Origin: Gemmatimonadota bacterium | GTDB taxonomy: Bacteria; ARS69 | DNA length: 38,080 nt | Reading direction: 5' to 3' | Assembly (NCBI GenBank): GCA_030747075.1 | Contig: JASLLL010000027.1 | Span: 1-38,080, forward strand | Shown here: one piece after another, positions 75 through 29,083 of the stretch | How positions within the stretch are numbered: position 1 is the first letter of the stretch | How the letters are laid out: each line of letters opens with the position of its first letter | Made by a program: the position numbers and the translations under genes | The notes under the pieces: model-generated | What the model was told of the DNA's origin: nothing | The model's input: only the letters and a program-made list of their open reading frames with translations | Database searches by the model: none

Positions 75-3093
<3,019 letters not shown>

Positions 3094-3165
3094 TCTCGAT
3101 CATCCTCGCGCCCTTTTTCCCATATCGTCTCCTCGAGTTTGTCAATTCTTCTGACCGGTTTGTCT

Positions 3166-3283
<118 letters not shown>

Positions 3284-3454: not shown

Positions 3455-5545
3455 GTGAAACAGTATCAGCCCGAGGCGCACCGAAATGTGACACTGATCG
3501 GCCACGGTGGCGCGGGGAAGACCACCGTGGTCGAGGCTCTCCTCGTGACGACGAAGGTCATTCCCCGCATGGGAAGCATTCTGGAAGGCACCACCGCACT
3601 GGACTATCTGGAAGACGAGCAGAAGAAGCACAGCGTGGCCCTTTCGATGGCGGCCATCGAGCACGGCGGTAAGAAGCTGAACCTTCTGGACACGCCGGGT
3701 TTCGCGGACTTTTCCGGTGAGGTGGCTTCCGGCCTCCACGCCGGAGACGCGGCACTTCTTGTGGTGGCGGCGGACTCCGGAGCAGAGGTCGGATCGGAGC
3801 TGACCTGGGCTCAGGCGCGGACCCTTGGAATGCCGAGGGCGATCGTCATCAACGGTATGGACAAGGAACAGGCGGATGGCGCAGCCGCGCTGGCCTCCGT
3901 TCGCGAGAAGGTCTCCCCGAAGGCTGTCGCCATGCAGATCCCCATGGGTTCCGGCGAGGACTTCTGCGGCGTCGTGGATGTCATTCGGAATCAGGCAGTC
4001 ACTTTCGACGGGAACACGGGGAAAGGCGTCAAAGGTGAGGTCCCCGCGGAGTTCGCGGACGCGCTGGAACAGGCGCGCGCGGACCTCATGGAGAACGCCG
4101 CCGAGAGCAGCGAAGAGCTGATGAACAAGTACTTCGACGAGGGGGAACTCTCGCAGGAGGACCTCGTTCGCGGCGTGCATGAGGGCATCGCGCAGGGAGA
4201 TCTCTACCCGGTCTTCTACATGTCGGCCATTCGGAACCAGGGAAGCGCCCAACTTCTCGATGGCATTGCGGACCTGCTGCCCGGCTGTACGGACATCGGG
4301 GCTGTGGAAGGTGTCCATCCGGAGACCGACGAGAAGGAACTGAGAGAGCCCTCCCCCGATGCGCCCCTTTCCGCGCTTGTGTTCAAGACGGCCATTGAGC
4401 CGCATGTCGGAGAAGTGTACTTCGTCAAGGTCTACTCGGGAGTGCTGACGGCAGGTGCGGAGGTGTACAACTCCGGTCAGGATCGCGCGGAGAAGATTGC
4501 GCAGCTGTACCATGTCGTCGGGAAGACCCGGACGGACACGGGCACGCTGTCCGCGGGAGACATCGGGATTGCCGTGAAGCTCAAGAACTCCCGAACCAAC
4601 GACACACTTTGCGATCGCTCCGCTCCGGTGAAGTTGACGCCGGTGAAGTTCCCCGAGCCCATTATCGACTTCTCCGTCTCAGCGCGCACCAAGGGGGAAG
4701 AGGACAAGATCTCCACCGGGCTCGCGCGACTCGCGCAGGAAGACTCCACCTTTGCGTATCACTTCGAAGACGAGACCCGCCAGACCGTCGTGTCCGGCAT
4801 GGGAGAGGCCCACCTGGACCTTCTCATGAAGCGGCTGACCGCGCGGTTCCATGTCGAAGTAGATCTGGAGACTCCGCGCATCCCATACCGCGAGACGGTT
4901 CGCGGCAAGGCGGATGTCCAGGGTCGCCACAAGAAGCAGACCGGCGGTCGCGGGCAGTTCGGCGATGTCTACATTCGCCTGGAGCCTCTCCCTTCCGGGG
5001 GCGGCTTCGTCTTCGAGGATGAAATCGTCGGCGGCGTGGTCCCGGGTCGGTTTATCCCGGCGGTGGAAAAGGGCATTCGCGAATCGCTCTCGGAAGGAAC
5101 GCTTGCGGGGTATCCCGTCGTGGACTTCAAGGTCACGCTCTACGATGGCAGTTACCACGCCGTGGACTCCTCCGAAGCGGCGTTCAAAGTCGCCGGTTCG
5201 CTGGCTTTCAAGAAAGCGCTTGCGGAGGCACAGTCCGTTTTGCTGGAGCCCCACTGGATCATCGTCGTGATGATTCCCAAGGACTACATGGGAGATGTCA
5301 TGGGAGATCTCTCTTCGCGTCGTTGCCGAATCAGCGGGATGGAAGCGGTGGGCGAGATGCAGGTCATCAACGCGACGGGCCCGCGGGCCGAGCTTCAGCG
5401 TTACGCCACCGACCTTCGCGCGATGACCCAGGGGCGCGGGACACACTCCCGGTCGTTCTCTCACTACGAGGAAGTTCCCCGGGATCAGAAGGAGCGGATC
5501 ATCGCGGACTCTCTCAAGCTGACGGAAGAAGAAGTCAAGAAGTAG
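3455..5545 (+). CDS. Elongation factor G-like GTPase (EF-G paralogue)
   Basis: This 696-residue protein has the full EF-G domain plan: an N-terminal G domain, a domain II beta-barrel, and domains III-V with the TGGRGQFGDV element of domain IV. P-loop GHGGAGKTT is at residues 16-24 and the G3 motif DTPGFADF at 79-86. Classical EF-G has His where F83 sits, and G4 reads NGMD (133-136) instead of NKxD. The switch I region is also atypical (EQKKHSVAL rather than the E-R-G-I-T-I type). These features match the EF-G-like paralogue family rather than the main translocase. It could act in translocation, recycling or ribosome stress. The GTG start has GGGAGG at 3443-3448. A second, canonical fusA is expected elsewhere in the genome. 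The function is inferred from family; the motif changes are seen directly. Confidence 0.9.
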   Translation: MKQYQPEAHRNVTLIGHGGAGKTTVVEALLVTTKVIPRMGSILEGTTALDYLEDEQKKHSVALSMAAIEHGGKKLNLLDTPGFADFSGEVASGLHAGDAALLVVAADSGAEVGSELTWAQARTLGMPRAIVINGMDKEQADGAAALASVREKVSPKAVAMQIPMGSGEDFCGVVDVIRNQAVTFDGNTGKGVKGEVPAEFADALEQARADLMENAAESSEELMNKYFDEGELSQEDLVRGVHEGIAQGDLYPVFYMSAIRNQGSAQLLDGIADLLPGCTDIGAVEGVHPETDEKELREPSPDAPLSALVFKTAIEPHVGEVYFVKVYSGVLTAGAEVYNSGQDRAEKIAQLYHVVGKTRTDTGTLSAGDIGIAVKLKNSRTNDTLCDRSAPVKLTPVKFPEPIIDFSVSARTKGEEDKISTGLARLAQEDSTFAYHFEDETRQTVVSGMGEAHLDLLMKRLTARFHVEVDLETPRIPYRETVRGKADVQGRHKKQTGGRGQFGDVYIRLEPLPSGGGFVFEDEIVGGVVPGRFIPAVEKGIRESLSEGTLAGYPVVDFKVTLYDGSYHAVDSSEAAFKVAGSLAFKKALAEAQSVLLEPHWIIVVMIPKDYMGDVMGDLSSRRCRISGMEAVGEMQVINATGPRAELQRYATDLRAMTQGRGTHSRSFSHYEEVPRDQKERIIADSLKLTEEEVKK

Positions 5546-25843: not shown

Positions 25844-28033
25844 ATGAATGACATGGAACGGACAGTCCCACCGAAGATCCTCTGTACCATCGGCCCGGCT
25901 ACGCTGAACCGGCGGTGTCTGGTGAAGATGGAACAGGACGGAGTCTGGCTCTTCCGAATCAACCTGTCGCACACCCGGCTGGAGGAACTGCCCGGCGTGA
26001 TCTCCGAGATCCAGTCGTGCTCCCGGGTTCCCATCTGCATCGACACCGAGGGCGCGCAATTGCGCACCGGCTACCTCAAGGGCGGGAGGCGCAACCTCCC
26101 GGCTGGCTCGCTCGTGGTCGTGGGAGGCGCGGGGGGGCTGTCGGCAAACCCTGATACCGCGCTGGCCCGGCTCTCGGCGGAGATGGGGATTACCTTGAAT
26201 CACCCGGAGGTGCTTCGGGATATCGAAATCGGAGAGATGATCTACCTTCGGCTGGGTTCCACTTCCGTGCAGGTCATCGACAAGCTGGAGAACGACGAAC
26301 TCCTCTGCCGAGTCGTGATCGGGGGGACGGTTGGCTCCAACAAGGCGGTGGACATCCAGACTCCTCTCGCGCTTCCCGCCATGACGGAGAAGGATCGCGC
26401 CTCCATTCAGATCGGGCGGGAGTTCGGAGTGAAACACTTCGCCCTTTCATTCGCGCAATCCGCGGAGGATGTGCGATCCATGCGGGCCGAAGTGGGTGAC
26501 GATGCGTTCCTGATCTCGAAAGTGGAGTCGAACCGGGGCCTCATGACTCTCGACGACATCATCCGCGAGTCGGACGCGATCCTGATCGATCGAGGGGATC
26601 TCTCCCGGGAGCAGGCCATCTCCCGAATCCCGTTCTGGCAGAAGCGGATTACGCACGCCACCAAAGAGGGCAAGAAGGAACTCTATGTGGCAACGAACCT
26701 GCTGGAGTCCATGATCACCAGCAGTCTGCCTACGCGTGCGGAGGTCAACGACATCGCCAACACGCTGCTGGATGGAGCGGACGGGCTGGTTCTTGCCGCG
26801 GAAACGGCCATCGGCGGAAATCCGCTGGCTGCCGTCGGGATCTTGAAGAGTGTGATCGAAGAATACGAGAAGTTCACTCGCGGGGAGGGACCCAGGCTGG
26901 AAGACGCCGGTTCGCGCCTGATCCCGCCTCATGGGGGAAGTCTCTGTCTGGCGCCTCGGCTGGATCGGAAGGCATTGCCGATGACCTCGACCGATCTTCC
27001 GCTTCGGCACACGCAGTATCTGGACTTCCTGCAGCTCGCGAACGGTGTGTTCAGCCCGGTGCGGGGGTTCATGACCAAGGCGGAGGTCGAGAGCGTACTC
27101 AGCAGGGAAGTGCTCCTGAGCGGGGCGCTGTGGCCCGTTCCCATTCTGCTTCAGGTTCCGGGGGAAGTTCACTCTGCGGTGGAGCAGGGGGAGCGAGTGG
27201 CACTCAAGTGGCAGGACTCCGTGGTCGGCACGCTGACGGTGGGGGAGAAGTACGAGATCTCCCCGGGTGAGGTCTGTGAGCGGCTCTTCGGCTCACGAAA
27301 CCCCGACCACCCCGGGGTAGAGACCGTGATGGAAGGCGGGGGCTTCGTTCTCGCGGGAGACATCGAGATTGTCGATGATGTGCGCGTTGATGCCGCACGC
27401 TACGAGGTGACACCGCTTCAATCGCGTTCGCTCTTTGAGATGAAGGGCTGGTCACAGGTCGTCGGGTTCCACACGAGGACATTGCCCAATCTCGCGCACG
27501 AGTTCATCCAGAAGAGGGCATTCGCGCGGACCTTCGCCGATGGTCTCTTCGTCAGTCCGGTTTCCGGACCGGTTCGGGATGGCGAGTTCGGCATCGCGGA
27601 GACTACACGATGCTACAACGAACTGACCACCTCCCGGGAGTACGAGAACCTGGAGGTGGTCATCGGGTCGTTCCCGACGCACACCAGATACGCCGGGGTG
27701 CGGGAGGTCGTATTCGACGCGCTCTGCCATCAGAACCACGGCTGCACGCACTTTGTGGCCGGGCCGGAGCATGGAGAGTTTGCCGCGGCATCGGGCGGTA
27801 CTGAGAGCTCCTCCCGCATGGACGAGCTTCAGAAGAAGATGGAAGTGCGAATCGTGACGGCCTCGCGCGTGTACTACTGTGACGAGTGCGGGTCGGTCAC
27901 GGACTCCTGCACCCACTCGTCGGAGCATCACCACCCGATCACCGGATCTCTCGTCAGCGAGGTGCTTCGCGGGGGGGGCACATTCCGATACCCCATGGTG
28001 AGCGGTGTCGTCCGGGAGTTTCTGGCGACCTAG
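25844..28033 (+). CDS. Pyruvate kinase-like/ATP sulfurylase-like fusion protein
   Basis: A 729-residue cytosolic protein. Residues 1-345 match pyruvate kinase (PEP + ADP to pyruvate + ATP): KILCTIGPAT, RINLSHT (R38, N40), DTEGAQLRT (D68; usually DTKGPEIRT), SKVESNRGL (K226, E228), DRGDLSRE (D252), ATNLLESM (T284) and PTRAEVNDIAN. The residues expected to bind PEP, metal and phosphate are kept; the C-terminal regulatory domain is missing. Residues 357-729 match ATP sulfurylase/PUA-like Sat: HGG, NGVFSPVRGFM, WPVPILL, HPGVET, RYAGVREVVF, and a Cys cluster (C679, C682, C689, H691) like the zinc site of some bacterial Sat. The key QTRNPxHRAHE motif reads HTRTLPNLAHE (543-553), so the first HxxH histidine is Asn. 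Start ATG 25844; ATG 25853 is equally possible. A sulfotransferase follows. Confidence 0.88.
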   Translation: MNDMERTVPPKILCTIGPATLNRRCLVKMEQDGVWLFRINLSHTRLEELPGVISEIQSCSRVPICIDTEGAQLRTGYLKGGRRNLPAGSLVVVGGAGGLSANPDTALARLSAEMGITLNHPEVLRDIEIGEMIYLRLGSTSVQVIDKLENDELLCRVVIGGTVGSNKAVDIQTPLALPAMTEKDRASIQIGREFGVKHFALSFAQSAEDVRSMRAEVGDDAFLISKVESNRGLMTLDDIIRESDAILIDRGDLSREQAISRIPFWQKRITHATKEGKKELYVATNLLESMITSSLPTRAEVNDIANTLLDGADGLVLAAETAIGGNPLAAVGILKSVIEEYEKFTRGEGPRLEDAGSRLIPPHGGSLCLAPRLDRKALPMTSTDLPLRHTQYLDFLQLANGVFSPVRGFMTKAEVESVLSREVLLSGALWPVPILLQVPGEVHSAVEQGERVALKWQDSVVGTLTVGEKYEISPGEVCERLFGSRNPDHPGVETVMEGGGFVLAGDIEIVDDVRVDAARYEVTPLQSRSLFEMKGWSQVVGFHTRTLPNLAHEFIQKRAFARTFADGLFVSPVSGPVRDGEFGIAETTRCYNELTTSREYENLEVVIGSFPTHTRYAGVREVVFDALCHQNHGCTHFVAGPEHGEFAAASGGTESSSRMDELQKKMEVRIVTASRVYYCDECGSVTDSCTHSSEHHHPITGSLVSEVLRGGGTFRYPMVSGVVREFLAT

Positions 28034-28039
28034 TCTGCG

Positions 28040-28068
28040 TTGCTCATCCGGAAAGCACGCGATATCCT
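28040..28068 (+). promoter_or_regulatory. Sigma-70-type promoter of the sulfotransferase gene
   Basis: TTGCTC (28040-28045) and TATCCT (28063-28068) are 17 bases apart, immediately after the stop of the fusion gene and about 30 bases before the sulfotransferase start. The -10 box is identical to that of the EF-G-like gene. The sulfotransferase can therefore be expressed apart from the fusion gene. Confidence 0.6.
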
Positions 28069-28099: not shown

Positions 28100-29083
28100 A
28101 TGAGCCATGCGGCACGGGATGTTGTCTTGCTTGGCGGGTTTGGACGGAGCGGGACCGGGGGCGTGCTCCGCCTGCTCTCTCCGCACCCGGACATCTATGC
28201 CACTCCCTATGAGCTGCGCCTGCTGACCGATCCGGACGGACTCCTCAGTCTGGAGTCCGCGCTGATCGACAACTGGACTCCCTGGCAGGCGGACTTCGCC
28301 ATCGATCGATTCCGGCGGCTTGCGAAGACCATGGGGCGGACATGGGGGAGCGCCTACACCCGATCGAACTACTCCGGGCGGTTCGGGCCTCATTACGCGG
28401 AGGCGGTGGACGCGCTGCTGGAGCGGTTGGTGTCCTTCTCATACCAGGGAATCTGGGCTGGCCGGGCGACGCTTCTGAACAAAGTCCTTCTGAGATTGAC
28501 CGGGCACCGCCGCTACTCTTTCAACAGCCGGGAGATCTTCTTTGCGCAGGAGGTCGACCGTGAAGGCTTCCATCGGGTCACGCGGGAGTTCATCCAGACA
28601 CTGTATGAAGGAGTCGCCGGAGAGAAGGGTGCGAACAGGATCCTGATCAACGAGCCGTTCGTGACCCAGGCACCCGGGCGGTGCATGGAGATGACAGGAT
28701 CCACCCGGCTGATTGTCGCCTGCCGCGATCCACGGGACTCCTTCGGGTCGTTCCAGACGAGAGACTGGAGTCCGCGCGGTCTCTCGGAGGCGGTGGAGTT
28801 CCAGAGCTCCGTGCACCGACGCTGGCTGGAGCAACGGTCGAGACTACCGTCGGAGCAGGTTCTTCAGGTGCGGCTGGAGGATCTGGCGGCGGACCGCGAC
28901 TCGGTCGTTCGTTCCCTGGAGAAGTTTCTGGGCCTGGAGATTTCCCCCGAGACCATTGCGAACACCGGGTTTTCGGCGGCGAAAGCCCATGTTGGAAGAT
29001 GGAAGAAGCAGTTCAGCGAAGACCAGCAGAAACTTGTCACCGAGTCCTTCCGAGAAATCCTCACGGCATACGGATACGAGTGA
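28100..29083 (+). CDS. PAPS-dependent sulfotransferase family protein
   Basis: A 327-residue protein of the P-loop sulfotransferase family, which moves a sulfuryl group from PAPS to an alcohol, sugar, amine or tyrosine acceptor. The 5'-phosphosulfate loop is LGGFGRSGTGGVLRLL (residues 11-26; R16-S17-G18-T19). The 3'-phosphate site is CRDPRDSFGSF (208-218). A C-terminal GRWKKQFSEDQQ element is typical of the family. There is no signal peptide or membrane segment, so it should act in the cytosol. ATG 28100 has GGGAGGG at 28087-28093. The adjacent fusion gene carries an ATP-sulfurylase-like domain, so the two may share a sulfate-activation theme. The acceptor is unknown. Confidence 0.87.
   Translation: MSHAARDVVLLGGFGRSGTGGVLRLLSPHPDIYATPYELRLLTDPDGLLSLESALIDNWTPWQADFAIDRFRRLAKTMGRTWGSAYTRSNYSGRFGPHYAEAVDALLERLVSFSYQGIWAGRATLLNKVLLRLTGHRRYSFNSREIFFAQEVDREGFHRVTREFIQTLYEGVAGEKGANRILINEPFVTQAPGRCMEMTGSTRLIVACRDPRDSFGSFQTRDWSPRGLSEAVEFQSSVHRRWLEQRSRLPSEQVLQVRLEDLAADRDSVVRSLEKFLGLEISPETIANTGFSAAKAHVGRWKKQFSEDQQKLVTESFREILTAYGYE

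Follow-up and report, generated by a model that had tools for sequence, protein, structure and literature searches.

A widespread but rare bacterial pyruvate kinase–ATP sulfurylase fusion family with a proposed role in PAPS supply, and a member with a degraded sulfurylase site

What is gained by joining a pyruvate kinase (PK) to an ATP sulfurylase (Sat) in one bacterial polypeptide, and do both halves still work as enzymes? The question is raised by an open reading frame in a 38,080-nucleotide stretch of DNA from a Gemmatimonadota bacterium (contig JASLLL010000027.1; hereafter the window). The initial annotation had proposed that the kinase half recycles ADP to ATP with PEP and so drives sulfate activation. 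With human PAPS synthase in vitro the PAPS peak was practically missing without PK and PEP, because APS and ADP lock the APS kinase into a dead-end complex (PMC9885120). The best joint explanation of the evidence presented here, which we consider rather probable, is that PK–Sat fusions constitute an ancient, horizontally spread family that provides PAPS for sulfating surface glycans or other products.

The fusion is encoded by a single frame of 729 codons that begins with an ATG and contains no internal stops (Table 1). Translation may in fact begin at the ATG at 25853, because a GGGAG motif directly abuts the one at 25844. Pfam searches gave the domain order PK barrel, PUA_2 and ATP-sulfurylase: PF00224 matched residues 11–331 (E = 2.8e-66, 224.3 bits against a cut-off of 30), PUA_2 residues 382–511 (E = 1.9e-34) and PF01747 residues 519–713 (E = 1.5e-41), the latter two well over their cut-offs. 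The PHGG that follows the linker corresponds in the alignment to the start of stand-alone Sat proteins, and the third-position GC content is uniform (0.72–0.84) over the entire frame including the junction. A model calculated with AlphaFold2 from 67 fusion sequences (mean pLDDT 91, pTM 0.88) folded both halves with high confidence; Foldseek matched the Sat half to the solved Sat 8a8d (TM 0.89 by target) and the PK half to solved PKs. Two halves in one frame, with a kinase that ends at about residue 345, lacks the C-terminal regulatory domain and has Sat next, had been read from the sequence initially, and this reading is borne out. The APS kinase domain (PF01583) was not found in the window protein by Pfam, in which it differs from the PAPS synthases.

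Table 1. Positions of the PK–Sat fusion gene, its parts and related genes (window coordinates unless a locus is named; Sat residue numbers in brackets follow the Allochromatium vinosum enzyme).
Feature	Position	Strand	Basis
PK–Sat fusion gene, 729 residues	25844..28033	+	Pfam; homologous fusions elsewhere
Pyruvate kinase barrel half, residues 11–345, without C-terminal regulatory domain	25874..26878	+	Pfam, site census, Foldseek
Linker between the halves, residues 346–359, then PHGG	26879..26920	+	Alignment
ATP-sulfurylase half, fold kept, active site degraded	26921..28030	+	Pfam, site census, model, Foldseek
RNP loop and HXXH motif, both degraded: H543 T R T(N202) L P N(H205) L A H552	27470..27499	+	Alignment, census
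GxxKxxD loop, now GPVRDGE (K234R, D237E)	27566..27586	+	Site census
GRD loop, now GPEHG (R296P, D297E, A299G)	27761..27775	+	Site census, model
SGTxxR motif, now TGSLVS (R365S)	27941..27958	+	Site census
Sulfotransferase gene, directly downstream of fusion	28100..29083	+	Sulfotransfer_3, E = 6.5e-16
Triple fusion, Sat site intact	L111 8737-11946 (G388:C176)	-	Pfam

The fusion was sought in 84,980 species' genomes by a scan with the family alignment, which gave 220 confirmed stretches, the best 80 of which were kept; the source genomes are mostly MAGs. Both halves lie in one frame in all of these best 80 of 220 loci, a few being cut by a contig end, and the 80 loci span at least 14 phyla, as read from record titles and taxonomy: Pseudomonadota, Myxococcota and other Deltaproteobacteria, Omnitrophota, Elusimicrobiota, Bdellovibrionota, Chloroflexota, Acidobacteriota, Planctomycetota, Nitrospinota, Actinomycetota, Verrucomicrobiota, Gemmatimonadota, Bacteroidota, Marinimicrobia, KSB1 and several Patescibacteria. 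One member, L037, comes from Methyloversatilis universalis EHg5. A plasmid search located the fusion on two rhizobial megaplasmids (Ensifer adhaerens and Sinorhizobium chiapasense), and a 60-genome search located it in genome G047 (42% identity over 702 residues to the window protein; same contig as locus L022). The family is widespread but rare, because only the window genome and G047 were positive among 386 sampled genomes. With its one-frame PK–PUA_2–Sat order, DTEGAQ, DRGDLSRE and ATNLLESM motifs and a His at Sat position 199, the window copy is a regular member.

Two separate genes joined by an assembly error are excluded as the source of this arrangement, since the fusion recurs in many independent genomes, cultured isolates among them. 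A phage origin was likewise rejected, no fusion being present in the phage records searched or in IMG/VR. In trees with the stand-alone enzymes the PK halves of the fusions form one clade (SH-aLRT 100), as do their Sat halves (SH-aLRT 99); a single fusion event is therefore the simplest reading, and the fusion is probably old and of single origin. No description of it was found in the open-access literature, and the bacterial family is apparently undescribed so far. Small-genome Patescibacteria also carry the fusion (L072, L075, L083, L076, L079 and L063), several together with APS kinase and surface-polysaccharide genes, which suggests that these bacteria sulfate their own surface polymers.

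The PK half of the window protein retains R38, N40, S42, H43, D67, T68, R74, K167, K226, E228, D252, T284 and E320, so that the residues for PEP, metal, K+ and ADP are all present; R38, K226, E228, D252 and T284 had been named correctly at the outset, whereas the residue given as D68 is D67, with T68 next. With PykF and PykA the fusion shares the barrel, the B domain and the PEP, metal and ADP residues; it differs in lacking the C-terminal regulatory domain, in its separate clade and in its motifs (DTEGAQ, IDRGDLSRE and ATNLLESM in the family; ARGDLGVE and ATQMLESM in the usual enzymes). The half scored 257.8 bits against TIGR01064, under the NCBIfam equivalog cut-off of 306.4. K226 and T284 are found in all family members, and almost every member has an entire PK site, a census biased towards PK retention because the scan patterns sit in the PK half and members with a decayed PK would be missed. 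Given its complete site, the window PK half should be active. A housekeeping role was rejected, since the window genome (G000) encodes a separate full-length PK on contig C29.

The Sat half presents a different picture. Its residues are numbered here as in the A. vinosum enzyme (PMC3779200). In that enzyme Gln199 hydrogen-bonds sulfate (PMC3779200), and Gln occupies this position in 13 of 13 stand-alone Sats with a readable motif; the 77 fusions with intact Sat sites all have His instead (residue 543 in the window copy). This replacement at the sulfate-binding QXRN position may alter sulfate affinity or the choice of oxyanion. Otherwise the intact fusions resemble stand-alone Sat (PF01747/PF14306) in fold and domain order and keep R201, N202, H205, H208, GRD and R365, whereas the window copy is also without most of the catalytic residues. 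Compared with the 77 intact fusions it carries N202T, H205N, K234R, D237E, R296P, D297E and R365S, and N202, H205, D237, R296 and R365 are each invariant in that set. Asn202, His205, His208 and Arg365 are invariant residues assigned to PPi binding and transition-state stabilization (PMC3779200). Where intact fusions read HTRNVxHRxH and stand-alone Sats QTRNPxHRAH (window residues 543–552), and in the loops that follow, the QXRN, HXXH and GRD motifs have become HTRT, NLAH and GPE; the same RNP, HXXH and GRD losses appear in an alignment with the solved yeast, Thermus and Methanothermococcus enzymes. R201, H208, H298 and the ribose-contacting G295 are kept, as are the PUA_2 and ATP-sulfurylase domains and the fold. 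Residues 646–651, directly after the GRD loop, form the lowest internal stretch of the model (pLDDT <50).

Divergence is greater in this half. Mean identity of the window protein to intact fusions is 46% for the PK half and 34% for the Sat half, for which about 46% would be expected at such PK identity; the terminal branch of the window member, a long branch with no close relative, is 1.18 for the PK half and 2.83 for the Sat half, and the TIGR00339 (sopT) score of 207 bits falls under the equivalog cut-off of 322.95. The genome also encodes, at 76103–77218 of contig C2, an intact stand-alone Sat that adjoins the APS kinase gene CysC. Because invariant catalytic residues are lost and an intact Sat is available, it is unlikely that the Sat half of the window protein makes APS itself.

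The window copy is not alone in this state. Five further loci (L097, L100, L098, L085 and L086) have broken Sat motifs with complete PK motifs. As the tree places L085 and L086 among intact members, the five stand for about three additional losses; in L085 a CysC gene lies directly 3' of the degenerate fusion. Of the six genomes that carry a degenerate fusion, five (G000, G386, G387, G388 and G389, but not G390) also encode a stand-alone Sat, compared with 9 of 60 with an intact fusion (Fisher p = 0.0012), a comparison that reflects at most about four independent losses in lineages that are not fully independent and MAGs that may be incomplete. This Sat adjoins CysC in G000, G386 and G388. Between L097 and L100 dN/dS is about 0.16 for the Sat half and 0.07 for the PK half, similar to intact pairs, the values being rough as synonymous sites are well diverged. 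Because of this low ratio the dead Sat half of L097/L100 is taken, on sequence comparison, to be maintained by selection. Most plausibly, with APS available from another Sat, the sulfurylase activity would become dispensable, the half would be kept for docking or sensing and PK would be the useful activity.

The genes around the fusions point to what that activity may serve. Genes were called in 83 loci and profiles were made from the neighbours. APS kinase (PF01583) is near the fusion in 44 of the 83 loci. In 39 hits it follows the fusion on the same strand, and 36 of these overlap the fusion end or start no more than 33 bases past its stop; a sulfotransferase is near in 50, and one or both are present in 71. 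These settings are mostly surface-polysaccharide clusters, and the further neighbours include O-antigen ligase, flippases, glycosyltransferases, sugar epimerases, DegT aminotransferases and nucleotidyltransferases. Genome G388 encodes a 1069-residue triple fusion, Sulfotransfer_3–PK–PUA_2–ATP-sulfurylase, between Wzx-like and Wzy genes, in addition to a degenerate PK–Sat fusion and a stand-alone Sat–CysC pair. In the window a sulfotransferase gene is the only such neighbour, no CysC and no polysaccharide genes adjoining the fusion; its frame opens with TTG at 28040 and its likely start is the ATG at 28100, which has a ribosome-binding site and lies 66 bases past the fusion stop. It is because of the APS kinase and sulfotransferase neighbours that we assign the family a role in PAPS synthesis and sulfation.

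Three further observations concern the surroundings. In 15 loci, three degenerate ones included, a PF00999 Na+/H+ exchanger-like gene lies close to the fusion and shares its strand (for example L062 12835-14286 and L100 12563-13828; 13 more loci). The window genome holds several further sulfotransferase genes, on contigs C1, C11, C12, C15 and C27. The window itself starts with 23S and 5S rRNA genes (75–3283), followed by an EF-G gene (3455–5545).

In intact members the Sat half would make APS and PPi, and the adjacent CysC would convert APS to PAPS with release of ADP; we infer that the PK half returns this ADP to ATP with PEP. Such recycling would pull the uphill sulfurylase step and prevent the APS–ADP dead end of the APS kinase. 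In the window copy the PK half would still recycle ADP, and the Sat half would be a catalytically dead pseudo-sulfurylase, APS being supplied by the stand-alone Sat next to CysC on C2; the dead half would most likely act as a docking or oligomerization platform that holds PK near the Sat–CysC pair or the adjacent sulfotransferase. We are moderately confident of this proposal as a whole. The original idea of PK-driven sulfate activation thus survives for the family, with APS kinase downstream, sulfotransferases adjacent and PK residues kept, and is not supported for the window protein, which has lost Sat N202, H205, R296 and R365 and is accompanied by an intact stand-alone Sat.

Instead of docking, the dead Sat half might sense APS, PAPS or a nucleotide and tune PK or the neighbouring sulfotransferase. 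The retained G295, H298 and Arg201 are consistent with this, and the APS-kinase-like domain of fungal ATP sulfurylase, which binds PAPS as a regulator (PMC3779200), would be an analogous precedent; ligand binding is, however, a prediction, the GRD loop is altered and modelled with low confidence, and we regard a sensor as unlikely. Decay of the Sat half or of the whole gene towards a pseudogene, which would leave the Sat half functionless at present, would account for the long Sat branch and the identity deficit, but the 729-residue frame is intact with uniform GC3, the fold is well predicted outside the GRD loop, the comparable pair L097/L100 is under purifying selection and the same state occurs in about four lineages, all of which makes decay quite unlikely. 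For the family as a whole, the PK half could recycle no ATP and instead sense PEP or play a structural part, so that carbon state gates sulfate activation; its missing C-terminal domain and the separate PK found in 47 of 64 fusion genomes would fit, yet the PEP, metal and ADP contacts are kept beyond the needs of binding alone and the fusion adjoins the ADP-making CysC, so that this role appears distinctly improbable. That the window protein is a working bifunctional enzyme whose PK drives its own Sat half is very improbable, for all its confidently predicted folds and its R201, H208 and H298, since five residues invariant in 77 fusions, among them ones implicated in PPi binding and in transition-state stabilization (PMC3779200), are replaced and an intact Sat is encoded elsewhere.

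The proposed recycling of ADP by the PK half has counterparts in known systems. PAPS synthases (human PAPSS, Aquifex Sat/APS kinase) also pair Sat with a reaction-pulling enzyme, but they carry Sat and APS kinase in one chain, whereas here an N-terminal PK is joined to Sat and APS kinase is separate, often adjacent. The engineered PK/PEP regeneration system (PMC9885120) follows the same logic, PK removing ADP and restoring ATP for APS kinase, but is a laboratory mixture of separate enzymes, whereas the fusion is a single naturally occurring gene with operon-like surroundings. Fungal ATP sulfurylase also has one half turned pseudo-enzyme with a possible regulatory role; there the dead half is APS kinase-like, here it is Sat-like and the live half is PK. 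The Cobetia sulfated-capsule cluster uses CysDNC and not a PK–Sat fusion.

A broader formulation, which we offer tentatively, is that bacteria of many phyla have a self-powered sulfate activation, in which a PEP-fed PK joined to ATP sulfurylase, and in one case to a sulfotransferase as well, recycles on the spot the ADP that APS kinase releases, and that in several lineages, including that of the window, a pseudo-sulfurylase tethers the kinase to a separate Sat–CysC pair. That the Sat site has been lost repeatedly while PK was kept offers a direct test of the purpose of the kinase half. If the proposal is true, the family would be nature's equivalent of the PK/PEP regeneration added by chemists for PAPS synthesis in vitro, would be useful for enzymatic glycan sulfation and would supply a gene by which sulfated surface polymers could be traced in uncultured phyla, among them the ultrasmall Patescibacteria.
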